This document shows positions 1 through 19,439 of a stretch of DNA of 47,982 nucleotides, piece by piece; within the stretch, counting starts at the first letter, position 1, and the number at the start of each line of letters is the position of its first letter. The stretch comes from Gammaproteobacteria bacterium (GTDB taxonomy: Bacteria; Pseudomonadota; Gammaproteobacteria; Pseudomonadales; Halieaceae), in contig JAUHYL010000027.1 in NCBI GenBank assembly GCA_030426545.1, positions 1-47,982 on the forward strand. The letters run 5' to 3'. Under the pieces are notes generated by a model. The model was not told the DNA's origin. It worked only from the letters and a program-made list of their open reading frames with translations, and did not search any database. The position numbers and the translations under genes are program-made.

Positions 1-439
1 AGATGCGCGAATCGACGATCTCGAAACAGGGCATGATGGTTGCCGTGGCGTCCAGCACATCCTGTTCCGTCACGCCCGGGCCTACCAGGTCTTTCTTTAG
101 CCTAAAGGCTATCTCGCCCTCGGCCCGGGGCTGGATAAGGTTACCGGAGATGGGGATGTCCGAACCGTCCGGGTACGCCATGGTATTGGTCAGGAAGCCA
201 AAATCAGGCTGGAATACACCGAGCATTTCCTGCACGGGTTTACTGGTAACGCCAATTTTTTTCCCGACGATGGTTTCGCCGTCTTGCTCCAGCCGCCTGC
301 TCACCATGCGTTGCGAGATATGGTAGGCATCTTCAATCGTGATATCCGGCTCGCGCTCGGTCAGCGGCGGCAACGTGCTGCATGACCTGAGGGCGGCGTA
401 CAGCTCATCACCCAGGGTCTCAATGCGATCTTGTTCCAT
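1..439 (-). CDS. mhpD: 2-keto-4-pentenoate hydratase (MhpD/TesE family), C-terminus cut by window edge
   Basis: Predicted to add water to 2-hydroxypenta-2,4-dienoate (or a substituted form) to give 4-hydroxy-2-oxovalerate, the step after hydrolysis in meta-cleavage routes. About 146 N-terminal residues of the usual 260-270 are present. The segment GKKIGVTSKPVQEMLGV is the conserved GxKxGxTS region, and QPRAEGEIAF carries the acidic pair that binds Mg2+ in this family. The ATG at 439 has TAGGACAG just upstream. It lies 86 bp downstream of the ring-cleavage hydrolase gene on the same strand, which fits the pathway order; an aldolase and acetaldehyde dehydrogenase would be expected beyond the left edge. 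It could instead be a related 4-oxalocrotonate decarboxylase, which has the same fold. Confidence 0.87.
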   Translation of the reverse strand, partial: MEQDRIETLGDELYAALRSCSTLPPLTEREPDITIEDAYHISQRMVSRRLEQDGETIVGKKIGVTSKPVQEMLGVFQPDFGFLTNTMAYPDGSDIPISGNLIQPRAEGEIAFRLKKDLVGPGVTEQDVLDATATIMPCFEIVDSRI

Positions 440-525: not shown

Positions 526-1359
526 TCAGCCGTTCTGCAGGAAATCCAGGCAGGCCCGGTTGAACATGTCCTCGTGCTCCACCATGACCCAGTGTCCGCA
601 CTCGGTCACCAGGATTAGACGCAGCTGTTTGAGGTTTTTCGCCATCGCCATGATGCCGTTCTCCGGCATCATTTTCTCGTCCATGCCCCAGAAGCCCAGC
701 ACCGGACAACGGATCTCTGGCAGGCGGTCAACAAGCACCGGGATCTGCATGGTGGCCATGACATGACCGTTCATGATTTCCATGATCTGCGTACGCTCTT
801 CCACCAGCTCGTCGGTAGCGTATTGCGGGTCGTGCATGAGGCCGGTGGCGAACAGATCCTTCATCACCTCATGCGTGACAGGCTCGCCAGAGCCGAACAC
901 CTGGAACACCTTCTGCATACCCGGCATGGCCTGGTACTCGGGTAGTTCACTCAGGCCGCCGGGCGCCATCAGAATCAGTTTCTCGACCAGGTCCGGGTAA
1001 TCCAGGGCCAGCCCGATGGCAATGGCGCCGCCCAGGGAGTTGCCCACCAGCGTGCAGCGATCCACGCCGGCAGCGTCGAGCGTCTGCTTGATGCATTCCA
1101 CAAAAAACGACAGGGGGTGATCCCTGTCGTCGGGCTTGTCTGAAAAACCATAGCCGATATGGTCCGGGACTACACAGCGATACCCCGCCTCCACGAGACG
1201 GGGATAATTGCCTTTAAAGTTACTGTGCCCGCTCGCGCCAGGGCCGGAGCCATGCAGGAACACCACCACGTCGCCTTTGCCCTGGTCGATGTAGTGCATG
1301 CGGTAGCCGTTGGCACACTCGGCGTACTGATCTTCCGGTAATCTCCCGATCATCTTCAT
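526..1359 (-). CDS. meta-cleavage product C-C hydrolase (MhpC/BphD/HsaD-like alpha/beta hydrolase)
   Basis: A 277-residue alpha/beta hydrolase expected to split the C-C bond of a vinylogous 1,5-diketone made by extradiol ring cleavage. Visible features: oxyanion-hole segment HGSGPG near residue 36, nucleophile Ser108 in GNSLGG, acid Asp227 in GMDEKM and His256 in ECGHW; length and spacing match MhpC, BphD and HsaD. The open frame extends upstream into the hydroxylase gene, but the start chosen at 1359 lies 10 nt after that gene's TGA with GAGGGT overlapping the stop, so the two are probably translationally coupled. The hydratase follows directly. Whether the preferred substrate is phenylpropionate-like (MhpC) or steroid-like (HsaD) cannot be told from the sequence alone. 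Confidence 0.88.
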   Translation of the reverse strand: MKMIGRLPEDQYAECANGYRMHYIDQGKGDVVVFLHGSGPGASGHSNFKGNYPRLVEAGYRCVVPDHIGYGFSDKPDDRDHPLSFFVECIKQTLDAAGVDRCTLVGNSLGGAIAIGLALDYPDLVEKLILMAPGGLSELPEYQAMPGMQKVFQVFGSGEPVTHEVMKDLFATGLMHDPQYATDELVEERTQIMEIMNGHVMATMQIPVLVDRLPEIRCPVLGFWGMDEKMMPENGIMAMAKNLKQLRLILVTECGHWVMVEHEDMFNRACLDFLQNG

Positions 1360-1369
1360 GTGCTGACCC

Positions 1370-2560
1370 TCACAGCGCGTAGTCGGCGTTTTCTTCGCCG
1401 AACAAAACCCCACCCATATTGGCGGCAAAGGGCGTGGAGTGATTGGCAACGTGCGCCTGGCTGGCCAGGATATCGAGGTGGTAGGCCAGCAGCTCGCTGT
1501 CCATGCGAATGCCGCCGCTACCGGCCGCTTTCAGCATCTTGCTGGACAGCGCCAGGCACCGATCCGCCACCACCGCAGAGTCATAGCGGTATCGAATGCG
1601 ATCCTCTACGGGAATAGGCTCGCCCGCGCGACAACAGGCCATCATGGCGTCGAAGTTGCGCAGCATGGTGAGCTTCATTTCTTCGATTTCGGCCTTCACC
1701 TCCGCTGCCAGTACTCTGGCGAATGGGTCGTCCTTCATCTTCACCGGACCGGCCTGGCGGGTTTTCGCCACCTCGACAAAAGCCTCCAGTGCACCCTCGC
1801 AGGCGCCCAGTGTGGCGGTACACACGGCGCGCACAAACACCTGCATGAACGGCATGCGATAGAGCGGCGCGGTGTTCACCGCGTTGCCCGGGTTGTCGCA
1901 GAGGAAGCCGTCGATGGATTTATGCGTGCGGTGCTCGGGCACAAACGCATCCTCCACCACGATGTCGTGGCTACCTGTGCCCTGCAGGCCGATCACTTCC
2001 CAGTTCGGGATGATCTCGTAGTCCTCGATAGGCACAAGAAATGTGCGGTAATTGGCCATATCAAAGGGCGCTTCCGGCGTCGGCACGACCGCGCCAAGGA
2101 AAGCCCACTTGCAGTGCTCCGAGCCACTGGAAAAACTCCAGCGACCGCTGAGGCGAAAACCGCCATCAACCACCTTCACCTTGCCCACCGGAGCATACGA
2201 CGAGGAAATGAGCACAGTGGGATCATCTTTCCAGACGTCCTGCGCCGCCTGGTCGTCAAACACGGCCAGCTGCCAGTTGTGGACCGCGATGACGCCGAGA
2301 ATCCATGCACTGGATGGACAGTGGCGCGCCACTTCCAGCCCCACCATATAGAAAACCTGGGGATCCATGGCATAACCACCCCACTGCTCCGGCTGCAGAA
2401 TTTTGAAGAATCCTGCTTTTTGGAATTCCTCCACCGTTTCAGTCGGTACGCGCTGATCCCTGGCCGCCTGGGCGCGGCGCTCCTTCAGTGTCGGCCCCAT
2501 GGCGCGGGCTGCGGTCAGCAGTTGCTTCGCCCGGGGGCTGTCTAATCCATACTCGTTCAT
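1370..2560 (-). CDS. hsaA: HsaA-type flavin-dependent phenol hydroxylase (acyl-CoA dehydrogenase fold)
   Basis: Predicted oxygenase subunit of a two-component group D monooxygenase that ortho-hydroxylates a phenol to a catechol using reduced flavin from a separate reductase. The 396-residue protein has the acyl-CoA dehydrogenase fold, but its middle resembles HsaA (the 3-HSA hydroxylase of steroid degradation): VISSSYAPVGKVKVVDGGF, a SGRWSFSSGSEHCKW segment, GLQGTGSHDIVVEDAFVP and a long helical C-terminus with FVRAVCTATLGACEGALEAF. The ATG at 2560 has AGGTGA upstream. The HsaB-type reductase partner is encoded at 15,097-15,603. It is followed within 11 nt by the C-C hydrolase. A dibenzothiophene or indole monooxygenase relative is the main alternative. 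Confidence 0.85.
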   Translation of the reverse strand: MNEYGLDSPRAKQLLTAARAMGPTLKERRAQAARDQRVPTETVEEFQKAGFFKILQPEQWGGYAMDPQVFYMVGLEVARHCPSSAWILGVIAVHNWQLAVFDDQAAQDVWKDDPTVLISSSYAPVGKVKVVDGGFRLSGRWSFSSGSEHCKWAFLGAVVPTPEAPFDMANYRTFLVPIEDYEIIPNWEVIGLQGTGSHDIVVEDAFVPEHRTHKSIDGFLCDNPGNAVNTAPLYRMPFMQVFVRAVCTATLGACEGALEAFVEVAKTRQAGPVKMKDDPFARVLAAEVKAEIEEMKLTMLRNFDAMMACCRAGEPIPVEDRIRYRYDSAVVADRCLALSSKMLKAAGSGGIRMDSELLAYHLDILASQAHVANHSTPFAANMGGVLFGEENADYAL

Positions 2561-7788: not shown

Positions 7789-7806
7789 ACCTATCTTTGG
7801 GCAGGT
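7789..7806. promoter_or_regulatory. 18-bp dyad motif, copy 2 (Nudix/SMP-30 divergent region)
   Basis: ACCTATCTTTGGGCAGGT, extended to a perfect AACCT-N10-AGGTT dyad. It lies 3 bp before the Nudix ATG and 69 bp before the SMP-30 ATG. Over 22 bp it matches copy 1 at 20 positions. The position over the Nudix ribosome-binding site suggests repression of Nudix or control of the plus-strand lactonase gene. Confidence 0.5.
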
Positions 7807-7874
7807 TGATCGTCCAGGCGTGGCGTGCAAAGTACTGCAAACACACGCTGAATCACTATTCCAGGAGACAGCCA

Positions 7875-8780
7875 ATGCACACGCTTACCGATCAGTTACG
7901 TTTTCCGGAGGGCCCCGTCGTACTTGAGGATGGCTCTGTCATAGTGGTTGAGATCGCCACTGGCGGCGTTTCAAGGGTTTACGAGGATGGGCGAGTAGAG
8001 AAGGTTGCGGAGCCAGGTGGCGGCCCCAACGGGGCGGCGCTAGGGCCGGACGGGCGTCTTTACGTGTGTAACAACGGAGGCTTCAGCTGGCATGAGGATG
8101 ATGGGCTGTTGGCTCCGGGGAATACGCCAGCCGATTATTCTGGCGGCCGCATTGAGGCCATCGACATATCCACCGGCGATGTCGAGGTACTATACACCGA
8201 TTGCAATGGGAATCCCCTGAAAGGACCCAACGACCTCGTGTTTGATGGACACGGAGGCTTCTGGTTCAGCGACAACGGCAAGCGCTACGACCGCACAATG
8301 GACCGCGGAAGCATTTTGTACGCCAAAGCAGACGGCTCCCACATCGATGAGTGGTTTTTCCCCTTCGAGCACCCCAACGGCGTGGCGCTCTCGCCAGATG
8401 GCGGCACACTCTACTTCACAGAAACCGTTACAGGCCGCTGCTTTAAGGCAGAACTGGAGGCACCGGGCAAACCGGCGAGAGTGTTCGGCAGTTTTGACCC
8501 CGAGGGACTCCTCTACGGTGCCCCAGGAATGCAGTTATTTGACTCAATGGCCGTCGATTCTGAGGGCAACGTGTGTATTGGTACGATCATTAACGGCGGC
8601 ATTACTGTCATCTCGCCCGAGGGAGAGCTGGTTGAGCATGTGCCACTTCCCGATCCGTTCGTTACCAACATCTGCTTCGGTGGCGTCGATATGAAAACCG
8701 CTTACGCCACACTATCGGGTACCGGAAAGCTGGTCAGCTTTGACTGGCCCCGCCCGGGGCTTCGTCTGCATCACCAGTAG
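7875..8780 (+). CDS. SMP-30/gluconolactonase/LRE family lactonase
   Basis: A 301-residue six-bladed beta-propeller expected to hydrolyse a lactone with one divalent metal. The metal ligands of the family are visible: Glu in RFPEGPVV near residue 12, Asn in KGPNDLVFD and Asp in LFDSMAVDSEG; repeated GxxxxDxxGxxxF blades fill the rest. No signal peptide, so it is cytoplasmic. The ATG at 7875 has AGGAGA upstream; the longer frame lacks an SD. It is the only plus-strand gene in the island and is divergent from the Nudix gene. A lactone would arise from a Baeyer-Villiger-type oxidation, a reaction the nearby luciferase-like enzyme could carry out; that link is inference. Confidence 0.88.
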   Translation: MHTLTDQLRFPEGPVVLEDGSVIVVEIATGGVSRVYEDGRVEKVAEPGGGPNGAALGPDGRLYVCNNGGFSWHEDDGLLAPGNTPADYSGGRIEAIDISTGDVEVLYTDCNGNPLKGPNDLVFDGHGGFWFSDNGKRYDRTMDRGSILYAKADGSHIDEWFFPFEHPNGVALSPDGGTLYFTETVTGRCFKAELEAPGKPARVFGSFDPEGLLYGAPGMQLFDSMAVDSEGNVCIGTIINGGITVISPEGELVEHVPLPDPFVTNICFGGVDMKTAYATLSGTGKLVSFDWPRPGLRLHHQ

Positions 8781-8850
8781 CTCCCGGTGATCGAAGGAGA
8801 GCAGAGCCGGGATTCCTGACGCGCCCCGAGCGGCTCACCAACTACCTCAG

Positions 8851-8873
8851 GCTGCGCTGCAGCTCAGCGCAGC
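8851..8873. terminator. hairpin at the convergent SMP-30/hydrolase 3' ends
   Basis: GCTGCGCTG-CAGCT-CAGCGCAGC is a perfect 9-bp stem with a 5-nt loop that includes the stop codon of the minus-strand hydrolase. No T-run follows on either strand, so it may be an mRNA 3'-end stabiliser or a weak bidirectional terminator. Confidence 0.35.
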
Positions 8874-9718
8874 AGGAACTCGAGGTGAATACGATTGAAA
8901 GTGTCGCTGTCTTCAAACTGGGGCCAGTGACCACAATCGGTAATGAGCGCGTACTCCCCGTTGGGGATTGCCCTTGCGACCCGCTCGCCTACTTCCGGCG
9001 CGGCAGTAGGGTCTTTGGTCGTCCAGATAACCAGTGAGGGTGCCTGGATGTTACTCACTCGCTCCTCGTCCATAAGGTATAGCGCCCGCACTTCTTCCAG
9101 GTAGAGCACGGTACCGTTCTCGACGGCCCGCACCGCTCCCTCCTGCTCGTAAATCCGTGTACGGCACTCTACCAGATCCTCGTGCACACAGGACGGGTCA
9201 GCCATCAACCACTGCAGGCGCTCGCGCGTCGACTCCCGGGGGGCTCGCGCAGCCGCGAGCGTTTTATCTCGCACTGTTTTCATTACCTCCAGATTCATGG
9301 TTGCGCCGCCCATTGTGTTCAACACGAGTTTCCTGACCCGCTTAGGATGCGCAATGGCAAACGATCCGGCCACCCAGCCACCCAGCGATTCGCCTGACAG
9401 GTAGGCCTGTTGCGCACCGATGGCGTCGAGGAAGTCCCCAACGTGCTTGATATACGCTGGAATGTCATACGGTATGTCTGGCTTGTCGGAATAGCCGTGT
9501 CCGATCATGTCGATACTGTATGTGCGGAAATGCTTGCCGTGCTCAGCCAGATTGCGGATATAGGCCTCGGCGTGACCGCCGAAGCCATGCAGGAAGACCA
9601 GCACATCCTCATGCTCCTTACCCGTCATGAGGTAACGCGTGCGGATGCCCCCCGCGTCTACATAACCCTGCTCGAAGGACACGCCCTGTAAATCGACCCA
9701 CATGCTCTCATGCGCCAC
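8864..9718 (-). CDS. alpha/beta hydrolase (MhpC-like)
   Basis: A 284-residue alpha/beta hydrolase with the full triad: Ser111 in SGESLGGW, Asp236 in TKDPTA and His264 in DCGHWPQFE; the oxyanion loop is HGFGG near residue 44. It resembles C-C hydrolases of meta pathways but lacks the HGSGPG loop of the other hydrolase in this window, so it may be an esterase or epoxide hydrolase-like member. The start is GTG at 9718 with AGGAG 8 nt upstream, 32 bp after the luciferase-like gene, with which it almost certainly forms an operon. The pair may oxidise and then hydrolyse one intermediate. Confidence 0.85.
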   Translation of the reverse strand: MAHESMWVDLQGVSFEQGYVDAGGIRTRYLMTGKEHEDVLVFLHGFGGHAEAYIRNLAEHGKHFRTYSIDMIGHGYSDKPDIPYDIPAYIKHVGDFLDAIGAQQAYLSGESLGGWVAGSFAIAHPKRVRKLVLNTMGGATMNLEVMKTVRDKTLAAARAPRESTRERLQWLMADPSCVHEDLVECRTRIYEQEGAVRAVENGTVLYLEEVRALYLMDEERVSNIQAPSLVIWTTKDPTAAPEVGERVARAIPNGEYALITDCGHWPQFEDSDTFNRIHLEFLLR

Positions 9719-9750
9719 TTGTTGATCTCCTCTGGTTGCAGGCGTTGCTT

Positions 9751-10974
9751 TCAGGCGGCCTGGCGATTGGACGGTTTGACAGTATTAGTGAAGTGCGGCA
9801 GTACCTTTTCCGTCATCAGATCCATGGACTTCATCAGCATGTGCTGCGGGAGCAACTCATTACCTGTGAACAACCACAGGTGCTCGCACGGCATATAGCT
9901 GAAGACGTTTTCCATCTGTCGGATTACCTGGTCCGGTGTACCGCAGAACAGAATCTCACGCTCAATCAATGAATCCATATCCAGCGGAATCTTGCGCCAG
10001 TCCTCGTCGCCGCGAGCAAGGACCGCAGTGAATCCAAACTGATGAAAGAAGTACGTCCACTCGAAGGTGGCAAGCCGTGCCATTTCTTTGGCCTCTTCCT
10101 CGGTCTCGCCGACTATGCAATAGCGCGCAGAGCCAAAACCCTCTCCCGGCTCGCGATGAATACCCGCATCGGCCCAGCCGCGCTGGGCCTCGATGACCTG
10201 TTCTTCAATCAGAGACCTCTCTGTCTGGATCGCCACCGGTATCAGGCCGTTTTTTGCCGCTGTGTAGATGCTGGACTTGTGCGCAGCAAAGGGTTCGAAC
10301 ATGGTAGGAATGCGCTTGTTATAACAGGCCGGGGTAACACCCACTTCTGTAAGTTTGCCATTGGCGTCGATACCGGCGCCCATTTCGACAGTGGACTGGG
10401 CACCGGGCCAGTTGATGTTAGGCACTGGAACCTGCCAGTGCTTACCTTGGTGACTGAATGTGTCATTGCCCCAGGCCTTTTTGATAATCTCTAGATTCTC
10501 GGCAAACCATTCACGCTTGAGTTCGGTGTACGCTTCGGGATCCGTGATATTGTCAGCCATTCCGCGATGCTGTCCCATGATATTCACCCAACGCGTCTGT
10601 ACGCCGCGAGCAAAACCGGCTATGGCACGGCCCTGAGTCATCTGATCCAGCATCGCGACTTCAGCCGCCACACGAAAGGGGTCGTGCACTGGCAGAACAT
10701 AGCCTAGTACGCCAAAGTGCATGTTCTCTGTTTGCATGCCCAGGTAGAGGTCCAACATGCCGGGACAGTTGGAACAGGTCATACCCTCTATCGACATGTG
10801 ATGCTCTGTAAAGCCGATGCCGTAGTAGCCGTGTTCGTCAGTGTACTTGGCGAACTCGGTAATGTTTTTGAGCATGTTCTGGTAGAGATCGGTGCGGCGG
10901 CCTGCCATCCCTTTGTATAGCTCTTCCTTGGGTCCCACGGTGGGCGGAATAAAGAAGGAAACCTTCATATCCAT
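9751..10974 (-). CDS. luciferase-like (LLM class) flavin-dependent monooxygenase
   Basis: A 407-residue bacterial-luciferase-family TIM barrel that uses reduced FMN and O2. Recognisable segments are the N-terminal YYGIGFTEHH strand, the GVLGYVLPVHDPFRVAAEVA block, GRAIAGFARGVQ, and a C-terminal ILFCGTPDQVIRQME typical of the family. Members carry out Baeyer-Villiger, C-S/C-N or alkane oxidations, so the reaction is open. The frame starts 7 codons earlier, but the ATG at 10,974 follows AGGAG at 8 nt spacing and is preferred. It needs FMNH2, possibly from the HsaB-like reductase. The gene lies 220 bp downstream of the LuxR-type regulator and 32 bp upstream of the hydrolase gene. Confidence 0.85.
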   Translation of the reverse strand: MDMKVSFFIPPTVGPKEELYKGMAGRRTDLYQNMLKNITEFAKYTDEHGYYGIGFTEHHMSIEGMTCSNCPGMLDLYLGMQTENMHFGVLGYVLPVHDPFRVAAEVAMLDQMTQGRAIAGFARGVQTRWVNIMGQHRGMADNITDPEAYTELKREWFAENLEIIKKAWGNDTFSHQGKHWQVPVPNINWPGAQSTVEMGAGIDANGKLTEVGVTPACYNKRIPTMFEPFAAHKSSIYTAAKNGLIPVAIQTERSLIEEQVIEAQRGWADAGIHREPGEGFGSARYCIVGETEEEAKEMARLATFEWTYFFHQFGFTAVLARGDEDWRKIPLDMDSLIEREILFCGTPDQVIRQMENVFSYMPCEHLWLFTGNELLPQHMLMKSMDLMTEKVLPHFTNTVKPSNRQAA

Positions 10975-11194
10975 GACGCATACTCCTGTCTGCAAACGTT
11001 TTTGTTAGCCTTCAAGGCTATAGAACAACATCCAGGTAGGGGAAATATCCTCTCGAAAGTGAGGTAAGCTGATGGGTATATGGGCAAATTCGCGGCGCGG
11101 CACTCTTCTAGCGTTCAGCGCCTGGATAAAGTCGTCAATTTCCGGGTTCTGCTGGATGCGCAGGCACTCGACGCCACACCCCCAAATTTAGTGC
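10975..11194. promoter_or_regulatory. putative control region before the luciferase-like gene
   Basis: 220 bp between the regulator stop and the monooxygenase start. It holds a CCTC-N8-GAGG dyad at 11,049-11,064, about 75 bp before the start, and on the minus strand CTAAATTTGG (11,182-11,191), a degenerate relative of the core of the 18-bp dyad. No clear -35/-10 pair was assigned. Confidence 0.35.
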
Positions 11195-13930
11195 CTATTT
11201 GAGAAAGCCCAGGTGCTTCGCTCGGTGAATAGCCTGAGCACGGCGCCGCACATCCAGCTTTTGGAATATCTGCCGCATATACCACTTCACGGTACCCACG
11301 GTTAGCCCGAGATTCGCCGCAATCTGCTTGTTCATCATGCCCTGTTCAACCAGGCGTAGAATTTCGGTCTCTCGTGCATTCAGCGGCTCGACGGGAGAAT
11401 CTGACGCAACCGCGGGTTCCACCGTGTCAGCAGGGAAAATTCCGGCTTCACGCAACAGCCGGTCGCGCACTGGCATCAGCTTCTCGTCGGATATCTCAGC
11501 AGACTGCAGTAAATCGATAACTGGTGTGCCTCCGTCTATGACCGAGCGCACGAACCCACAATCATTCGCCCAGGTCAACGACTCCCGCAACAGTCGCAGT
11601 GCCTTGGGTTTGTCGCCCCGTATTATGGCGGCACGCGTAGCCAGGATATTGAATCGGATGGCGGAGCGCAGCGCGCCTCGTGAGATCAGGAATTTGCGCC
11701 AACGCTCCAGCAACTCGGATGCCTCTGTAACACGATTCTTGGCCAGGCCGATTTCCGCCCAGGCAAGCGCTTGTGGCTCCGAGAGCGAACTGAATGCCTG
11801 GGGACGGGTTAGCTCATCCAGCGAAGAAACCAGGCCATCTGCCCTGGCTATCCTGAAGCAACGCTCAATGTTGCCCTGCTCCAGCAGTATTTGGTAGCGT
11901 TCGCTCATCAGAATATGATGCAGGCGCCTGAAGTTACGTCGTTCGGCTACAGCAGAGCCTTCATCTAGCACCTTTAAAGCCCCATCAACATCACCGGACA
12001 GGCGTAACAATTTTGCCTGCGTGACATAGCCAGCAGCTAGTTGCCCCAGCAGCCCCATACGCGCTACGAGCGCCAGGTAGTCCTTTACCAGGCTACCGGC
12101 CTCTTCAAGCTCTCCACACTCGTAGAGCAACTCGGCCAGATGCAGCCCGGGCATTGCCGGCGTTGAACTATGCCGTCCACCCAGAGTAACAGCCACCTCC
12201 AAACCTCTGCGGTACATGCTCGCGGCACGCGCTATGTCCCCTCTGGAAAAAAAGCATGCACCAAAGATCGTATCGTTCCAGACTTTCGCCCAGTCCATCT
12301 CTGGCGCATCAAAGGCGGTTCGAATATCGGCTGCCTGCTCCAGGCCTGAGAAATCATAGCGTTCAACGCGCGACCAGATCAGCGATGTACGCACAACTGC
12401 TTCATCAAAACTGGAGCGCTCGTGGCCAAGTTCCAGCCACTCCGAGCACAGTCGTTCAGAGTCAGTGTGCTGATCTGTCAGTAGTGCCAACTGGCTCTCG
12501 CGGTGTAACAGCTCGGGATAGAGTGCATCACCGGCACCTTCATCTCGAGTTAAGGTACTCCTCACCTGATCGAGCACCTGTCGCGCTTCATCGAAGCGCC
12601 AGGAAAGGGTGAGCGCGTAGATTCTATCCAACTGCATCATCGGATAACGATTTGCGACCTTTGATGGCAGCATGGCCGCGTAGCGCATTACAGTGCCGCC
12701 ATAGCCCAATTCACGCAGTTCCGAGGCGACCGCAGCAAGCACCTCTCCAAGAAAGTTATCGTCATCCGATTGCGCCGCATGCATACAGGCGCGCACTGGA
12801 AGACCGTGGTCCCGATACCACTCGGCCGCCGCTCGATTAATGGCGGGGATTGCAGCGGCATCGCGCTCCACGAGATTACGCCTGAGGTGTTCGCCGAACA
12901 GCCGGTGGTAACGGTAAAAAACACGCTCATCGTCCATATTGAAAATAAAGAAGTTGCCGGTCTCAAGGCGGCCAATAACTTGTCGAGAGTCGTCCCTTCC
13001 AAAAATGCTATCGCACAGCTCGGCACTGAAAGAACTAAGCACTGCGGAACGCTCCAGAAAGTCCACCATGTCAGGACTCAGCCGAGCCAGAACTTCTTCA
13101 GCAAGCAGATCGCTGACATCGCGGTGCGTGCCGGAAAAGCGCTGGATAAACTCCTTGGTGTCCCCCTGCCCCCGCAGCGACAAGACTGCCAGTTGCAATG
13201 CGGCAATCCACCCGTCGGTACGTTCACACAAAGCGCGTACGTCATCCTGATCGACGGCCAGATCCTGTTGCACAGCAAAATATGCCTCGGCCTCTTCCTC
13301 AGAAAACTGCAAATCCAGTGGGCCCAACTCCAACATCGCGTGGCGCATGCGCACCCGCGCCAGGGGCAGATCTACAGCGTCACGCAAAATCAATATTACA
13401 TGCAGGTTAGCGAGCCCGTGGTTGACCAGCGAGGCGAAGATGCTGGTGGCTTCATCTTCCAGCGAGCCATGAAGGTCGTCGACTACCATGAACACTGGTT
13501 TGTCGTGGCCCTCTATAGCGCTGAAAAGAGCACTAAGTGTGGCTGAGACACTGGCCTCGAAGCCAGTATCGAAAAGGCCAGAGAGTTCGGCTGAAAGCTC
13601 CGGGGAAGACGCCGAAAGGCTCGCCGCCAGGTACATGAGTATGCGGGTTGGCTCACTATCCATTTCGTCCAGGCTAACCCACGCTCGGCTGCAACCTTCT
13701 GGCGCGTGATGCTGGAACCACTGTGCAACCGCAGTCGTCTTGCCGAAACCGGCAGGCGCAAATACCAGTGTCACTTCGTAGCTTGCCGCCTGGTCGAGCA
13801 GCGCACTGATGCGTGGACGTTCGACAATCACACTGCGCGTTGCTGGTGGGCGCAGACGTCCGCGCAATAGCGGCCATCCTCCCTGGCTAGCTGAGTTCGG
13901 CGATTGCTGTTCAATCTTCTTGTATTCCAT
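11195..13930 (-). CDS. MalT/AlkS-type LuxR family ATP-dependent transcriptional regulator
   Basis: A 911-residue STAND-type activator. Order of parts: short N-terminus; NTPase domain with Walker A in FAPAGFGKTTAV (about residues 60-72) and a Walker B-like VFMVVDDLHG; a long helical TPR-like sensor region; and a C-terminal LuxR helix-turn-helix (about 850-905) with LNARETEILRLVEQG and GLTVGTVKWYMRQIFQKL. MalT and AlkS are the model members: inducer plus ATP drives oligomerisation and activation. The ATG at 13,930 is chosen because it clears the preceding gene by 35 bp. It lies in the same direction as its neighbours within the island, so it is probably the pathway-specific activator and may be co-transcribed with the upstream genes. 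The inducer is unknown. Confidence 0.9.
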   Translation of the reverse strand: MEYKKIEQQSPNSASQGGWPLLRGRLRPPATRSVIVERPRISALLDQAASYEVTLVFAPAGFGKTTAVAQWFQHHAPEGCSRAWVSLDEMDSEPTRILMYLAASLSASSPELSAELSGLFDTGFEASVSATLSALFSAIEGHDKPVFMVVDDLHGSLEDEATSIFASLVNHGLANLHVILILRDAVDLPLARVRMRHAMLELGPLDLQFSEEEAEAYFAVQQDLAVDQDDVRALCERTDGWIAALQLAVLSLRGQGDTKEFIQRFSGTHRDVSDLLAEEVLARLSPDMVDFLERSAVLSSFSAELCDSIFGRDDSRQVIGRLETGNFFIFNMDDERVFYRYHRLFGEHLRRNLVERDAAAIPAINRAAAEWYRDHGLPVRACMHAAQSDDDNFLGEVLAAVASELRELGYGGTVMRYAAMLPSKVANRYPMMQLDRIYALTLSWRFDEARQVLDQVRSTLTRDEGAGDALYPELLHRESQLALLTDQHTDSERLCSEWLELGHERSSFDEAVVRTSLIWSRVERYDFSGLEQAADIRTAFDAPEMDWAKVWNDTIFGACFFSRGDIARAASMYRRGLEVAVTLGGRHSSTPAMPGLHLAELLYECGELEEAGSLVKDYLALVARMGLLGQLAAGYVTQAKLLRLSGDVDGALKVLDEGSAVAERRNFRRLHHILMSERYQILLEQGNIERCFRIARADGLVSSLDELTRPQAFSSLSEPQALAWAEIGLAKNRVTEASELLERWRKFLISRGALRSAIRFNILATRAAIIRGDKPKALRLLRESLTWANDCGFVRSVIDGGTPVIDLLQSAEISDEKLMPVRDRLLREAGIFPADTVEPAVASDSPVEPLNARETEILRLVEQGMMNKQIAANLGLTVGTVKWYMRQIFQKLDVRRRAQAIHRAKHLGFLK

Positions 13931-13965
13931 CGAAACGCCGTACTCAATTATTATGCGTGTTGTCG

Positions 13966-15078
13966 TTACGTATTCAGCGCTGAGCAAACATTCTCAGCGA
14001 TCGCCAAAGCAGCCGTCAATCCCGGAGACTCAATGCCGTGCAAGCTGCAGAAACCGGTGATGCCGTGCTCCCGGGGACGCAGAATGCAAAAATCGGCGGG
14101 GCGCTCATCTTTCCCGGATATCTTCGGACGTATGCCAGTATAGGCAGGCTGCAATCTTTGCGCCTCCAAAGCGGGAAAATAACTTCTTACGGCCTTTTCA
14201 AAATCAGCCCTCGCGCTGTCATCGAAGGAATAGTCGACATTATCGATCCAGCGCACATCAGGACCAAATCTCACCTGGCCCGCCAAGTCCAGGGTTGCGT
14301 GCACCCCCAGGCCACCTCGGCCAGGTAGCGGGTATACCAGCCTGCTGAAGGGTGCCTTACCAAAATAGCTGTAGTAGTGACCCTTGGCATAGAGCTGAGG
14401 CGGAATTTGCAGCTGCGCGCTACCACCGGACAGTCTGGACAAAACGTCACTGGCATAAAGGCCGGTGGCGTTAACCAGTAAACGACAAGCGATCGCAGCG
14501 GGCATTTCACCACCGATTTTCAGCTCGTGCAGCCCACCAGACCCAAGGGAACCAGACTCCAGCGGACTGTTTAAAGCGAGCATCCCGCCGGCAGATTCAA
14601 AGTCTCCCTGCAAGGCGAGCATGAACTGGTGTGAATCAACGATGCCGGTAGAGGGTGACCATAGCGCCAAAGGCGCCTCCACAGCCGGTTCAAGCAAGCG
14701 AAGCTGGCTGCGATCGAGCAACTCCAGATCTGCCACACCACAGCGCTCGGCATTGGCGCGCATTTCCTGCAGTCGGGCCTCATCGGCAGCACAGCTCGCC
14801 ACCACAAGTTTGCCACAACGCTTATGCGCGACGTTATGCGAGGCAGCGAACTCATAGAGAAGCTTCCTGCCACGTACGCAGGTTTGCGCCTTTAGGGAAT
14901 TCTCGGGATAGTAAATTCCGGCATGAATGACTTCCGAGTTGCGACTTGAGGTTTCTTCACCTATCTTGCCACGCCTTTCAACGATGATAGTTTCGAGACC
15001 GCGTTGAGCTAAGGCACGGCCAACGGCAAGGCCGACAACACCGGCCCCGATCACAATGGCGTCAGTTTGAAAGTCCAT
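13966..15078 (-). CDS. FAD-dependent oxidoreductase, LhgO-like (DAO superfamily)
   Basis: A 370-residue flavoprotein with an N-terminal dinucleotide fold (IVIGAGVVGLAVGRA) and the segment TSSRNSEVIHAGIYY that is characteristic of L-2-hydroxyglutarate oxidases. A C-terminal GIRPKISG and HGIESPGLTAALAIAE also match that family. LhgO oxidises L-2-hydroxyglutarate to 2-oxoglutarate; in this island a different 2-hydroxyacid or a glycine-like intermediate may be the substrate. The ATG at 15,078 starts the FAD-binding strand; its SD is poor. It is 18 bp downstream of the flavin reductase gene in the same operon. No membrane segment was seen. Confidence 0.83.
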   Translation of the reverse strand: MDFQTDAIVIGAGVVGLAVGRALAQRGLETIIVERRGKIGEETSSRNSEVIHAGIYYPENSLKAQTCVRGRKLLYEFAASHNVAHKRCGKLVVASCAADEARLQEMRANAERCGVADLELLDRSQLRLLEPAVEAPLALWSPSTGIVDSHQFMLALQGDFESAGGMLALNSPLESGSLGSGGLHELKIGGEMPAAIACRLLVNATGLYASDVLSRLSGGSAQLQIPPQLYAKGHYYSYFGKAPFSRLVYPLPGRGGLGVHATLDLAGQVRFGPDVRWIDNVDYSFDDSARADFEKAVRSYFPALEAQRLQPAYTGIRPKISGKDERPADFCILRPREHGITGFCSLHGIESPGLTAALAIAENVCSALNT

Positions 15079-15096
15079 GCCTGGTCAAAACGAGCC

Positions 15097-15603
15097 TTAT
15101 GGCGTAGCTGAACTGTCGCATTCCAGATACTGGCCATTAACGAACATTAGCGGCTCGCCTCCGCTGAATTCAAAAGACTCCACTTCACCTAGAATGATCT
15201 TGTGATCACCGCCAGCCATCACGTTGTGGCGCCTGCACTGAAAGCGTGCAAGACATCCTGCGATCCTCGGGACGCGTTTGCCATCATAGTCCCAGCGAAT
15301 CCCGTCATACTTTTCTGCACTGCTCTGTGCAAATCTGTCAGAAAGCCGACGTTGACTCGCGGCCAGAATGTGGATAGCGAAGTATTCGGCCGAGCAGAAC
15401 GCAGCGAACTGCGCGGCTCGATCCCCGACGCTCCACAAGACCAAAGTAGGCTCCAGTGAAACGGAGGAGAAGGAGTTGATAGTCATACCCAGCATTTCGC
15501 CTTCGTGTTCGGCGGTTACAACCGCGACACCAGTGGCGAAACATCCGAGCGCACTACGGTACTCGCGTAGGTCCTGATCTGGAATTTTTGCTTGCGCGGT
15601 CAT
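15097..15603 (-). CDS. NAD(P)H:flavin reductase (HsaB-type)
   Basis: A 168-residue flavin reductase-like protein of the split-barrel fold that supplies reduced FMN/FAD to a partner oxygenase. Recognised by ALGCFATGVAVVTA at the N-terminus, MTINSFSSVSLEPTLVLWSV, the segment DHKIILGEVESFEF and a final LMFVNGQY. It is the natural partner of the HsaA-type hydroxylase at 1370-2560 and could serve the luciferase-like enzyme too. The ATG at 15,603 overlaps the upstream esterase stop as ATGA with GGGAG 7 nt before it, so translation is probably coupled; this rules out the longer frame starting at 15,630. Confidence 0.88.
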   Translation of the reverse strand: MTAQAKIPDQDLREYRSALGCFATGVAVVTAEHEGEMLGMTINSFSSVSLEPTLVLWSVGDRAAQFAAFCSAEYFAIHILAASQRRLSDRFAQSSAEKYDGIRWDYDGKRVPRIAGCLARFQCRRHNVMAGGDHKIILGEVESFEFSGGEPLMFVNGQYLECDSSATP

Positions 15604-16529
15604 TTTTGAACTCCCTGCGCGCGATGCCATGTCGCGCGCAACATCGCTGCAACGTGCTGCACCGCGTCGTTCCCCTCATCGATTATGCCACCGAACGAAA
15701 AGAACCCATGAATGACGCCCTCGTAAAGATGCCAGGAAGCGTCTACACCAGCGGCGCGCAAGCGCTGCACGTAAGCACGAGCCTCATCTTCAAGAGGGTC
15801 GAGGCTTGTCGCCAATACGTAGGCTTTAGCAAGGCCGTGCAGGCTCTGGGCACGCAAGGGGGACACGCGCGGGTTTAGGAGGTCATCCCCGGCGTGCATC
15901 GCTATTACCCCGGCCAGACCTTCATCGTTGAGAAAATAGTCGCGGCTTATGCGACTGGGTGACTTGGATGCCATGTCCAACATCGGATACAACAGGATCT
16001 GCGCGAGTGGCTGCGGTAATTCGAGCTCTCGAGCGTCCAGACACAACGCAGCCGCGAGATAACCACCGCCGCTGTCCCCTGCGACAGCGATTCGATTGGA
16101 ATCACCACCCGCTACGCCGTTTTCCAGCAGCTGCCGGTAAACGGCCACACAATCATCCAGCGGCGCCGGAAAGGGATTTTCAGGTGCTTGTCGGAATGCC
16201 GGCACAACTACCGCACAGTCACCCTCGAGCGCCAGCCACGCACTCGTACTGTCAAAGTCCTCAGGTCGCAGCGTGCAGCAGCCACCACCATGCAAAAAAA
16301 GCAGTATCGGCAAGTCGGTAGTTGCTTCTGCGGGGGTATAAACAAGCGCGGGAATATCGCCTCCATCACCCGCAAAAACCACGTCTGTACGTGAGACTCC
16401 GGAAGGCGGGGGCGCTGCAAGACTCTGCCAAAGCTCACTGAAAGCGAGGCGCTGCTCCTCAATCGGAGGTGTGCTATCGGCATTCGGTATGCCGGCGAGG
16501 AACGATTCAACCTGAGGATGTATGTACAC
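15600..16529 (-). CDS. alpha/beta hydrolase fold-3 esterase (hormone-sensitive lipase family)
   Basis: A cytoplasmic esterase of about 309 residues. Diagnostic features: HGGG oxyanion motif in LFLHGGGCC, nucleophile in VAGDSGGGYLAA, Asp in SLDPLEDEA and His in EGVIHGFFSF, in the order typical of family IV (HSL) esterases. Expected to cleave a carboxylic ester on a substrate or intermediate. Start choice: the GTG at 16,529 has GGAG 9 nt upstream; the frame also allows a TTG at 16,544 (314 residues) without an SD. Its stop overlaps the flavin reductase start by 4 bp. It follows the halohydrin dehalogenase-like gene by about 80 bp. Confidence 0.87.
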   Translation of the reverse strand: MYIHPQVESFLAGIPNADSTPPIEEQRLAFSELWQSLAAPPPSGVSRTDVVFAGDGGDIPALVYTPAEATTDLPILLFLHGGGCCTLRPEDFDSTSAWLALEGDCAVVVPAFRQAPENPFPAPLDDCVAVYRQLLENGVAGGDSNRIAVAGDSGGGYLAAALCLDARELELPQPLAQILLYPMLDMASKSPSRISRDYFLNDEGLAGVIAMHAGDDLLNPRVSPLRAQSLHGLAKAYVLATSLDPLEDEARAYVQRLRAAGVDASWHLYEGVIHGFFSFGGIIDEGNDAVQHVAAMLRATWHRAQGVQK

Positions 16530-16612
16530 GCGAATTTGCTCCAATACTCACTTAGCTCACTTACACTGACTCTAGCGAAGCTGGCATAGATGTAACCTGC
16601 CTTTCGGCAGGC

Positions 16613-17281
16613 TCAAGAAGCCCAGGCTCCGGTCAGGGGAATGATCGCGCCAGACAGAAAGTTGCAGGCATCAGAAGCAAGGTAACGAACAAGGTTAGCC
16701 CCCTCTTCGCCGCTACCCAATCTACCGGCAGGTACTTCTGTGATCCGCTGCCGAAACTCAGCCGTTTCCTGGTAGGCAGCGGGAAAGTACTCCGGGTTTT
16801 CCACAAATATCTGCGCTGTAGCATTCACCTGTACACCCATAGGTGCCGCCTCCACCGCAGTGGCACGTACCCACGCATGCTGGGCAGCTCGCGCGGCTGC
16901 GTAGGCAGCGGATTTTGGAAATGCTCTGAGTGGTGCCGCAGAGCCAACCACCACGATCTTGCCGCTGCGTCGGCCATACATTCCCGGGAGATACTGACGA
17001 CCTATCGTCATCAGTGGATACACCAACGCTTCAAACAAAGGGCGAACATCGCTTTCCTGCAACTCGTGTGATGCGATATCCGGACGTGGGTGGGCGAGGT
17101 TTGCCACCACCACGTCGACATCACCTACAGCGTCGTACATGCGCGCCAGTGAATCCGGACTATTCACTTCCTCGTCGCACGGAACCACATGCGCCCCGGC
17201 CTGTGACAAAGCTTCTACCAGTGCCGGACCCATAAAGCGGCTACTGTGTGTGATCAGGATCTTCTTGTTACTCACATCCAC
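16613..17281 (-). CDS. halohydrin dehalogenase-like protein (HHDH, atypical SDR)
   Basis: A 222-residue SDR-derived protein that has lost the cofactor loop. It carries both hallmarks used to define halohydrin dehalogenases: T-x4-F-x-G at Thr11-Phe16-Gly18 (THSSRFMG) in place of the glycine-rich NAD loop, and S-x12-Y-x3-R at Ser114, Tyr127 and Arg131 instead of the usual Ser-Tyr-Lys. The C-terminal part (ENPEYFP, VPAGRLGSGEE, then a final GAW) also has the HHDH layout. HHDHs interconvert vicinal haloalcohols and epoxides with release of halide and no redox cofactor. The start is GTG at 17,281 with GAGG upstream, 42 bp after the SDR gene in the same operon. Activity and natural substrate are unproven; an inactive or carbonyl-acting SDR is the alternative. 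Confidence 0.8.
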   Translation of the reverse strand: MDVSNKKILITHSSRFMGPALVEALSQAGAHVVPCDEEVNSPDSLARMYDAVGDVDVVVANLAHPRPDIASHELQESDVRPLFEALVYPLMTIGRQYLPGMYGRRSGKIVVVGSAAPLRAFPKSAAYAAARAAQHAWVRATAVEAAPMGVQVNATAQIFVENPEYFPAAYQETAEFRQRITEVPAGRLGSGEEGANLVRYLASDACNFLSGAIIPLTGAWAS

Positions 17282-17323
17282 TGTCGCGATCCTCTTTATC
17301 GTTGCTCTGCTTACGCGGGTTAC

Positions 17324-18082
17324 TCACTTAGCGAGGTAACCCCCATCCACAACAACATTGGTACCCAATGCATAGGATGCCCTGTCGGAGAGCAGCCAGA
17401 CGACAGGCTCCGCGATTTCGTCAGGGCTTGCCAGGCGCCCTATAGGTTCAGCTTCAACAAGCACCTCACGCAGGCCTTCATTGGCATCCATCATCGTCGT
17501 CATCATTGAGGTTTCGGTAACGCCGGGTGACACCGCGTTGATACGTATCGCCTGAGATCCATACTCAAGAGCGGCAGTGCGCGTCAGACCCAGCACACCT
17601 GCCTTGGCGGCGCAGTAAGCCGACATATTGTATTGGCCGACCTCGGCGAGCGAAGACGCACAATTGACGATAGATCCGCCACCAGCCTGCAGCAGTGCAG
17701 GAATCTGGTAGCGCATACAGTTCCAAACCCCCTTTAGATTGACCGCCAACACGCGGTCAAAATCAGCTTCGGGATACTCTGCAGTGGGACACAGCGGGCC
17801 ATCGATCCCCGCGTTATTGAATGCCCCATCCAGCCCGCCCAATTCACTGATAGAGAACTCGAGCAGCGCCCGTACTGCTGAGGCGTCCGCCACGTCAACC
17901 TGGTGCACCCTGCCCTCGCCCCCCGCTGCGTGAATTTCAGCTGCCACCCGTTCAAGATTGGCAGAGGTCGTACCAGCCAGCACAAGCCGCGCGCCTTCCC
18001 TGGCACACAAGATCGCCGTGGCGGCCCCGATACCTTTCCCCGCGCCGGTAACCAGGATTCTTTTACCTGTAAGCAAACCCAT
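17324..18082 (-). CDS. classical short-chain dehydrogenase/reductase
   Basis: A 252-residue SDR with all canonical parts: VTGAGKGIGAATA loop, acidic Asp in VDVAD, NNAG in AFNNAGIDG, catalytic Ser in NCASSLAEVG and SAYCAAKAG (YxxxK), and a C-terminal TNVVVDGGY. It should oxidise or reduce an alcohol/ketone with NAD(P). The ATG at 18,082 has AGGAGA upstream and is 17 bp after the dioxygenase gene, so the two are surely co-transcribed. Functional contrast with the next gene: that one has the same ancestry but no cofactor loop. The substrate is unknown. Confidence 0.88.
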   Translation of the reverse strand: MGLLTGKRILVTGAGKGIGAATAILCAREGARLVLAGTTSANLERVAAEIHAAGGEGRVHQVDVADASAVRALLEFSISELGGLDGAFNNAGIDGPLCPTAEYPEADFDRVLAVNLKGVWNCMRYQIPALLQAGGGSIVNCASSLAEVGQYNMSAYCAAKAGVLGLTRTAALEYGSQAIRINAVSPGVTETSMMTTMMDANEGLREVLVEAEPIGRLASPDEIAEPVVWLLSDRASYALGTNVVVDGGYLAK

Positions 18083-18099
18083 TGCAGATTTTCTCCTGT

Positions 18100-19062
18100 T
18101 TATTGGTTTTGCGGATCACCGTGCATCATCGCGAAGCCGACAATCCAGCCGGGTATGGCGCGATAATAGTCCCGCCGCGCCGTGTATCGGCCGTCACTGT
18201 AGGCGTCCAGGGCTGCGAAGGGTGCAATCCAGTTTCGTATTTCCGCGGCACCGCGGCCTCCGCGCTCAATTATCTGCGAGTCTGGGATAGCGCATAGAGC
18301 GTCCAGATCACGGCGGGCGAAAAGCCCAATAATTTCCTCGTCCCAGTCTGCATCGAGGGGCTTCAGTTCACCCTCACCGCGACCATGTTCGCGTGCAAAA
18401 TCCAATACCCGTTCCACGCGAGCTTTCATGACTTCCTCAGTCCACTGGGGGGGGCCATCAATAATGCGCTGCTGGATCTCCGGCGGCGAATCCATAAACA
18501 CAGGCAGCGGCGGATCATGAGACAAGCCGCCTGAGCCCACAATGAGCACACGTAGATCGTCGAGACACTCTTTAATAAAGCATCCTATAGCTTCACCCAG
18601 CGCGCGAGCACGGAACAGTGGGGGCCGCATATCACCTCCGCAGTTGACGACAATCGGAACCACGGGAACTCTATCGATACCATCGAAATACAGGTCCAAC
18701 AGTTGCACGATCCCATGATCCACCGGCATCTTGTAGGAGTAACTGACATCGACCCCATGCCAATGCAAATACTCGATGAGTGCGCGCGCAGTCTCTTCGT
18801 CCGTGCTCAACGGCCCTGCCGAACAATTGAAGTCTCCCACACCATATGCGCGGACGCCTACGGTGAAAGGCGGCATCAGCTTCAGCCCGAAACCGCTGGC
18901 GTGATCATCACCAATTTTTATAACCAGTTCTGGCGCAAAGGCCTCAACCAGCTCCCTGTGGTGCGCCACGGCCGCTCTAGCCTCGGCTACCACGGCCTCA
19001 TCAGTCAGTCCTGGATAGTCCATCAGATGGGCATGACTACTGCAAAGCACTTTTAGAGGCAC
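18100..19062 (-). CDS. mhpB: class III extradiol ring-cleavage dioxygenase (MhpB-like)
   Basis: A 320-residue LigB-superfamily enzyme that opens a catechol ring next to a hydroxyl using Fe(II) and O2. It tracks E. coli MhpB (2,3-dihydroxyphenylpropionate 1,2-dioxygenase) along its length: CSSHAHLMD at the N-terminus, LMPPFTVGVRAYGVGDF, His116 in MPVDHGIVQ and His182 in GSGGLSHDPPLP (equivalents of the catalytic His115/His179), and a C-terminal IAPFAALDAY with IPGWIVGF. The start is GTG at 19,062 with GGAG at 6 nt. It is the first gene of the minus-strand operon, with dyad copy 3 63 bp upstream. Steroid clusters usually pair HsaA/B with a class I enzyme (HsaC), so the combination here is unusual. 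Confidence 0.92.
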   Translation of the reverse strand: MPLKVLCSSHAHLMDYPGLTDEAVVAEARAAVAHHRELVEAFAPELVIKIGDDHASGFGLKLMPPFTVGVRAYGVGDFNCSAGPLSTDEETARALIEYLHWHGVDVSYSYKMPVDHGIVQLLDLYFDGIDRVPVVPIVVNCGGDMRPPLFRARALGEAIGCFIKECLDDLRVLIVGSGGLSHDPPLPVFMDSPPEIQQRIIDGPPQWTEEVMKARVERVLDFAREHGRGEGELKPLDADWDEEIIGLFARRDLDALCAIPDSQIIERGGRGAAEIRNWIAPFAALDAYSDGRYTARRDYYRAIPGWIVGFAMMHGDPQNQ

Positions 19063-19439
19063 AGGCGACTCCGCTGCGTGAACCGATATCCACCTTCAGT
19101 CTATGTAGGCCCCGACCAACTGGCACCTAACTTTGGAAAGGTGAGTTTCCTGGAAGTGGCGCGAAGGATTGAGCCGCTGCGGAGCAATCAGCCAATGGGG
19201 GCGCGTTCAGATTGAACATCACCTTCGGGAGGCCCAAAGACGCCATGCCGCGGCATCGCACCGTTCATTCGAGCCGGGAGAAGGCTGCTGCTCACCACCA
19301 CAGCAGTAGGACTTCCGTTCAGCATAGACCTAAATGCCGTATCATTGACAAACCTTCACGACAGGGGACATGCTTCGGCTCAATAATCCTGACTCCAAGA
19401 GACAGTGCTGACCCTCTATCGGTCATTCACCAACCTGCC
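19063..19439. other. intergenic region between the catabolic island and the core genes
   Basis: 377 bp between the divergent mhpB and protease genes. It holds dyad copy 3 (19,125-19,142). A frame open from 19,212 joins the protease in phase but reads like non-coding sequence (His/Arg-rich, no SD). A TTGACA at 19,345-19,350 has no good -10 partner. No RNA gene was recognised. Confidence 0.4.
19125..19142. promoter_or_regulatory. 18-bp dyad motif, copy 3 (upstream of mhpB)
   Basis: ACCTAACTTTGGAAAGGT, extended to a perfect CACCT-N10-AGGTG dyad, 63 bp before the mhpB GTG. The first 12 bases are identical to copy 1. Its place ahead of the main operon makes it the best candidate for a true operator. 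Confidence 0.55.

Follow-up and report, generated by a model that had tools for sequence, protein, structure and literature searches.

Within the 47,982-nucleotide stretch of DNA analyzed here (the window), a gene for a halohydrin dehalogenase (HHDH) lies among genes that resemble an aromatic meta-cleavage operon. The reading we favor, with a probability of roughly 0.6, is that it encodes a cofactor-free HHDH of the B/D branch and that this lineage acquired it, as an accessory step, through insertion into a conserved meta-cleavage operon between two of the operon's genes; the catalysis, the insertion event and the physiological role are what we infer in this reading. The enzyme family is known, and the protein is an unusually divergent member of it in an interesting operon context. 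A divergent HHDH in a recognizable catabolic operon, together with sister operons that carry none, offers a clean with/without comparison of substrates, and the protein would bring a distant sequence into a family that is employed in biocatalysis. The natural role assumed for HHDHs is the detoxification and degradation of haloalcohols (PMC11536340). None of the titles and opening parts of abstracts listed for the open literature describes an HHDH in a meta-cleavage operon; one article listed (PMC8657726) contains both 'halohydrin dehalogenase' and 'extradiol dioxygenase'.

The first-pass annotation had placed an HHDH here on the basis of two signatures. Its coordinates are correct; the gene runs along the minus strand, which is open for 222 aa when read from 17281 to 16613; the plus strand of 16613-17281 contains two stops in the frame tested. 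HHDHs are defined by the motifs T-x4-F/Y-x-G and S-x12-Y-x3-R (PMC4989007, PMC11976700), and both claimed signatures are exact in the translation (THSSRFMG; S114/Y127/R131). As a control, we used four SDR queries (tblastn, E ≤ 1e-12) to gather SDR-like ORFs of 200-420 residues from the window and the loci collected, which gave 106 distinct sequences. Both HHDH motifs occur in 67 of the 106, most of which had been retrieved for their similarity to the window protein, motif 1 being one of the two search patterns used. At E ≤ 1e-25, each of these 67 matches the window protein, compared with none of the 39 ORFs with neither motif (0/39). This shows that the motifs discriminate HHDHs beyond chance, which is distinct from how frequent they are. 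Among the relatives of the window protein, 98 of 100 locus proteins carry both motifs. In L044 and L045 the Thr of motif 1 is replaced by Ser, and in the tree these two group with L041-L043 and L097 in a deep clade. The window's own genome has one HHDH gene, after which the strongest match to the query there is an SDR with 29% identity.

Table 1 Positions in the window of the HHDH gene, its motifs, the flanking repeat and the genes of the surrounding cluster.
Feature	Position	Strand	Remarks
HHDH gene	16613..17281	minus	222 aa, GTG start, RBS-like AGAGGA upstream
HHDH motif 1, T11-x4-F16-x-G18 (THSSRFMG, residues 11-18)	17228..17251	minus	exact match
HHDH motif 2, S114-x12-Y127-x3-R131 (SAAPLRAFPKSAAYAAAR, residues 114-131)	16889..16942	minus	exact match
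12-bp direct repeat, copy 1 (GCTAAGTGAGTA on the minus strand)	17321..17332	minus	overlaps the upstream SDR's stop codon
12-bp direct repeat, copy 2	16545..16556	minus	immediately upstream of the esterase gene
Class III (LigB/MhpB-like) extradiol dioxygenase, 320 aa	18100..19062	minus	NCBIfam 289.9 vs cut-off 291
Classical SDR (SDR_B), 252 aa	17324..18082	minus	TGAGKGIG and YCAAK present
HSL-type esterase	15600..16544	minus	GTG at 16529 is the likelier start, by eye from the L138 relative
Flavin reductase	15097..15630	minus	best models p-hydroxyphenylacetate hydroxylase reductase, FerA and HsaB, all under cut-off
FAD-dependent DAO-family oxidoreductase	13966..15078	minus	best curated model L-2-hydroxyglutarate oxidase, under cut-off
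MalT-type LuxR regulator, 930 aa	11195..13987	minus	
Luciferase-like monooxygenase (LLM)	9751..10995	minus	best solved relative 3,6-diketocamphane monooxygenase, E 1.3e-11
Meta-cleavage product hydrolase-like alpha/beta hydrolase	8864..9718	minus	best solved relative meta-cleavage compound hydrolase, E 2.8e-26
HsaA-like flavin-dependent hydroxylase component	1370..2560	minus	379.7 bits, cut-off 450
Second HsaD/BphD-like C-C hydrolase	526..1449	minus	under cut-off
2-Hydroxypentadienoate hydratase-like gene (presumed), 5' part	2..439	minus	cut by the contig end; 69% relative in L140

In a search of PDB chains, the best matches are 8xxb (E 4.4e-49), by its PDB title an HheD8 triple mutant with chloride, and 7b73 (E 6.9e-47), which is HheD2 (PMC9629495; the enzyme is also described in PMC5892878). 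These are followed by HheB 4zd6 (E 7.7e-35) and 6a41 (E 1.1e-27), and ordinary FabG chains begin at E 9.1e-20. We built a tree of 75 rows comprising the window protein, 20 family homologs (the partial L012 was excluded), 45 genome_contigs homologs (the first 45 of the 59 left after removal of near-copies from 80), five PDB rows and four SDRs. The window protein falls inside the B/D HHDH branch (98/95) with the HheB and HheD rows, and the four SDRs fall outside (100/96). Its own fork within the branch is weak (94/45), with a bootstrap that had not settled. Birth of the gene by tandem duplication of the neighboring SDR was rejected because the tree groups the protein with HHDHs.

The predicted structure points in the same direction. 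The AF2 model, made from a 46-row alignment, has a mean pLDDT of 92.1 and a pTM of 0.90 and predicts a cofactor-less Rossmann fold resembling solved HHDHs. Foldseek ranks 1-9 for this model are all HheD8, HheD2 and HheB chains (TMq 0.94-0.96, rmsd 1.4-1.6) and rank 10 is 6a41; NAD-type SDRs reach a TMq of at most 0.89 among the best 50 rows. We looked in the protein for a glycine-rich loop of the TGxxxGxG type and for the catalytic Lys of YxxxK, and both are absent; an alignment with the neighboring SDR shows a gap of about 29 residues in the cofactor-side region. Profile libraries give a different picture, which would suit an ordinary NAD(P)-dependent SDR that resembles HHDHs in its motifs by chance: the two Pfam models matched are both SDR models, both above their gathering scores, and the 25 best of 180 NCBIfam matches are likewise all SDR models, with scores far under cut-off and no HHDH model among these two and 25. 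Such an origin of the motifs is hardly credible given that tree, motif control and fold all group the protein with HHDHs and that the glycine-rich motif, the catalytic Lys and the cofactor-side residues are gone. By PDB matches, tree and predicted fold, the protein is almost certainly a member of the HHDH family, as the first-pass annotation had proposed. Of the two outcomes it had named as counter-evidence, placement among NAD-binding SDRs was not found in the tree; as to the other, a model with an intact cofactor site and no halide pocket, an intact cofactor motif is absent from the protein, and a residue-by-residue comparison of the pocket (below) shows one pocket-loop residue, N158, replaced.

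Within the family the protein stands apart. Its identity is at most 49% to every match listed, the closest being a protein from a Mycobacteriaceae MAG (L046). Its end branch in the first tree measures 1.56 compared with a median of 0.2, and it is the sole B/D HHDH row flagged as long. In a second tree of 53 rows, from which the SDRs were omitted and in which the subtype groups were named after viewing the first tree, the window protein lies outside both a 29-row HheD clade (99/96) and a 13-row HheB clade (97/89). With these groups chosen post hoc, an AU test does not reject joining it to the HheD clade (p 0.253) and weakly rejects joining it to the HheB clade (p 0.031). It shares with the HheD-type enzymes HheD2 (7b73) and HheD8 (8xxb) both motifs, the Ser-Tyr-Arg residues, a similar length, TMq values of 0.95-0.96 and 39-42% identity in structure alignment, but differs from them in its position outside the HheD clade of the free tree and in the replacement of W79, N158, Q212 and G219. 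The motifs and the short cofactor-less fold are also common to HheB (4zd6, 5b12; 36% identity, TMq 0.94), from which the protein is set apart by the weakly rejected joining and by Phe rather than Tyr in motif 1. It could represent an HHDH subtype of its own, distinct from B and D and sampled here for the first time, with an adaptation to an aromatic or alicyclic epoxide or halohydrin derived from the pathway and with dedicated catabolic partners (hydroxylase, extradiol dioxygenase and C-C hydrolase) in place of an epoxide hydrolase; we regard this as unlikely.

We compared the protein with 103 relatives, made up of 100 locus proteins (at least one pair being the same gene) and three PDB rows. 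Of 77 window positions in columns that are at least 85% conserved, 59 are kept and 18 are lost. The kept positions include T11, G18, S114, Y127, R131, Q157, F159, V160, N162, P163, Y165 and W220, and F16 is kept in a column with 85 F and 18 Y. The lost positions include W79V, G142A, N158I, V210S, Q212A and G219A; the column of G219A has Gly in 103/103 relatives, and that of N158I has Asn in 94/103 and Ile in 1/103. By alignment, N158 would be located in the loop equivalent to the halide-site loop of HheC. Residue by residue, the putative halide pocket retains F16 and the seven residues from Q157 to W220 listed above and has Ile in place of N158. Since the end branch is long and 18 of the 77 conserved columns are lost, the activity may have shifted or decayed.

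Details of the Tyr/Arg/Ser mechanism beyond its published outline come from work on HheC. By homology with this enzyme, Arg131 would lower the pKa of Tyr127, which would deprotonate the hydroxyl group of a vicinal haloalcohol bound by Ser114. The resulting alkoxide would displace the halide to give an epoxide; Thr11-Gly18 (Phe16) and the loop at about residues 157-166 would line the pocket that receives the halide, and in the reverse reaction epoxides would be opened by small anions. The Tyr/Arg/Ser mechanism of HHDHs is described in PMC4989007. In our estimate, the window protein probably acts on haloalcohols or epoxides. If the fold had instead been repurposed, Ser-Tyr-Arg chemistry would be kept and a non-halogenated pathway intermediate would be the substrate, for example by opening or isomerizing an epoxide made by one of the flavin monooxygenases of the operon, or by eliminating water or another leaving group. 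The long branch, the 18 lost columns and N158I in the pocket loop are consistent with a changed substrate of this kind, as is the presence of two kinds of flavin monooxygenase in the cluster. Nevertheless, both defining motifs are fully intact, as in nearly all the relatives, and nothing specific indicates a changed reaction, which leaves repurposing a minor possibility.

The neighbors claimed in the first-pass annotation (extradiol dioxygenase, SDR, esterase and flavin reductase) are present on the same strand as the HHDH gene, which begins 42 bp downstream of the SDR and ends 68 bp upstream of the esterase ORF. The cluster has matches to a dioxygenase, a hydroxylase and C-C hydrolases, and it therefore looks like a pathway of phenol hydroxylation and meta-cleavage, in agreement with the aromatic catabolic operon that had been suggested. 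Compared with known MhpB and HsaA-HsaB-HsaD pathways, the hydroxylase, reductase, extradiol dioxygenase, C-C hydrolase and hydratase are all recognizable in the window, the last as a putative assignment. On the other hand, the window adds the MalT-type regulator, the LLM, the HSL esterase and the HHDH, and the best NCBIfam matches of its core enzymes stay under the curated cut-offs, in the case of the dioxygenase barely. A NudE-like NUDIX gene, a TonB receptor, a GST and an SDR lie between the C-C hydrolase on the LLM side and the HsaA-like hydroxylase. An SMP-30/gluconolactonase-like gene on the plus strand (7797-8780), the ORF of which overlaps that of the NUDIX gene, has a relative (74-81%) in all three of the sister clusters described below. 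The contig ends inside the hydratase-like gene (1-439), which truncates the catabolic cluster, and any further pathway genes would sit on another contig. On inspection of its genes, no halogen-specific gene was recognized in the cluster. An epoxide-hydrolase query (from L066) has no match at E ≤ 1e-15 on the window's contig and three on the other contigs of the genome.

We then asked where else this cluster occurs. Dioxygenase searches covered 140 family genomes at E ≤ 1e-20 and 369 class genomes at E ≤ 1e-60, and LLM searches covered 390 order genomes at E ≤ 1e-60 and 398 phylum genomes at E ≤ 1e-150. The genomes searched at order, class and phylum level are a sample, and with many assemblies in pieces, some carriers may have been overlooked. 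These searches found the cluster in three other genomes (G024, G662 and G038). In G024 (L130 and L140), a genome from the window's own family, the identities are 80% for the dioxygenase, 71% for the SDR, 76% for the esterase, 65% for the flavin reductase, 63% for the DAO, 78% for the regulator, 93% for the LLM, 85% for the hydrolase and 69% for the hydratase. The value for the LLM is above those of the other full-length cluster proteins compared (63-85%). In G662 (L138), where a 9215-bp contig ends inside the SDR, the LLM is 85%, the hydrolase 75% and the esterase 72% identical. The cluster of G038 (L139, 19.9 kb) is rearranged, with matches to the dioxygenase (65%), the LLM (79%) and the regulator (51%) and none to the DAO.

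The cluster stretches L130, L138, L139 and L140 as fetched contain no HHDH, and the HHDH query matches just SDRs in them. In L138 the HHDH slot is empty, the SDR being followed by the esterase after a gap of less than 100 bp. In L130 the slot (5081-5851) is occupied by a 256-aa SDR-type protein with His at the position of the catalytic Tyr (HSTAK), and in L139 a symporter-like gene, assigned by ORF inspection, lies upstream of the esterase. An HheD/B-like gene is present in G024 but on a different contig from the cluster, and the best match to the HHDH query in G038 has an E-value of 3.1e-14 and 33% identity. Because the cluster stretches of three other genomes lack an HHDH, the core pathway seems not to need one. 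The HHDH looks accessory, and therefore the operon alone does not indicate a halogenated or epoxide substrate; the step from operon context to a halogenated or epoxide-bearing aromatic, which the first-pass annotation had taken, is not supported. As an accessory enzyme, the HHDH would remove a halogen or process an epoxide on a substrate side chain, before or after ring cleavage, and would let a pathway that also runs in its absence accept a wider range of substrates. A real role in the meta-cleavage pathway is, in our judgment, an even bet. We infer the gain of the gene from four clusters, and loss in the others may account for the pattern instead.

The flanks of the gene carry a possible trace of its arrival. 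The HHDH gene is flanked by two copies of a 12-bp direct repeat, spaced 776 bp from each other, which suggests an insertion. Simulated gap pairs of the same lengths shared 12 bp in 1 of 3000 cases, in a test conceived post hoc, and the window has five other places with 12-mers repeated 500-1100 bp apart. Read with a single repeat copy, the junction would consist of the SDR stop, 18 bases holding GGAG and the GTG start of the esterase, which by eye resembles a normal operon junction. The GC3 of the HHDH gene is 0.561, compared with 0.56-0.61 for the adjacent LigB, SDR_B, esterase, flavin reductase, DAO and regulator genes, and its codon score resembles theirs; the other cluster genes have values of 0.59-0.77, and four genes farther along the window 0.69-0.74. 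Composition, which is weak evidence, does not mark the HHDH gene as a very recent foreign gene.

These data also bear on the view that the gene is a bystander, inserted and cotranscribed with the operon, and serving general detoxification or no particular role. The three sister clusters without an HHDH and the repeat flanking the gene are what a bystander would leave, and the HheD/B-like genes of relatives occupy other contexts. Against this, GC3 and codon score fit the adjacent LigB-to-MalT genes, the insertion thus being not obviously recent or foreign as far as composition can tell, and the gaps to the neighboring genes are short; we consider a bystander quite improbable.

We also surveyed the loci of other HHDH relatives. 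In the family survey, 22 of 140 genomes, counting that of the window, have a match to the window protein at E ≤ 1e-25, and in the genome_contigs pattern search at least 535 of the 594 pattern matches listed encode relatives at E ≤ 1e-3. The earlier description of HHDHs as rare needs care in light of these counts. A conserved genomic context of the relatives was rejected: by tblastn of 20 window proteins, none of 80 genome_contigs loci and none of seven family stretches shares a cluster with the window, the likeness being limited to scattered SDR, AraC, TonB and LLM genes in loci of which many end at contig ends. In the locus of the closest homolog (L046), the gene adjoins amino-acid-permease-like and cardiolipin-synthase-like genes, as judged by ORF inspection, and no genes of the window cluster were found. 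G473 and G372 have both an MhpB-like gene and an HHDH, but these are separated by about 36 kb or lie on separate contigs, and linkage was rejected. MhpB-like genes at 39-41% occur in G251 and G232, and G011 has two dioxygenase matches at 34%.

A census of ORFs within 4.5 kb in 86 loci (80 genome_contigs and six family loci), clustered by single linkage on mechanically called ORFs with spurious frames included, found no dominant neighbor; the largest clusters, SDR and glyoxalase-like, extend to 10 loci. In 5 of the 86 loci (L053, L056, L066, L090 and L092), an epoxide-hydrolase-like gene adjoins the HheD-like HHDH gene. It lies 8 bp before the HHDH in L056 and L066, 5 bp before it in L092 and 78 bp before it in L090, and it follows the HHDH in L053. 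The gene of L066 matches EphA (E 5.9e-80), and the other four were assigned by BLAST clustering. A 2016 review mentions two operons of this HHDH and epoxide-hydrolase kind.

The plasmid collection holds one HHDH relative (41%) and no near match to window 8600-19100. A Sulfitobacter alexandrii plasmid from a dinoflagellate culture (L141, NZ_CP018081.1 235000-270000), typed as conjugative by PLSDB, carries a cluster of LLM, 4HPA-hydroxylase and MhpB-like genes with identities of 30-51%, which may be compared with the window cluster by analogy only; the HHDH has no match in this stretch. Around the HHDH gene of the window, promoter-like and terminator-like sites are not clearly above shuffles (1 vs 2.1 and 5 vs 3.8, respectively). 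Directly 3' of its stop codon, at 16596-16611, lies a hairpin without a T tract (CCTGCC-TTTC-GGCAGG), which may be a processing or pausing site.
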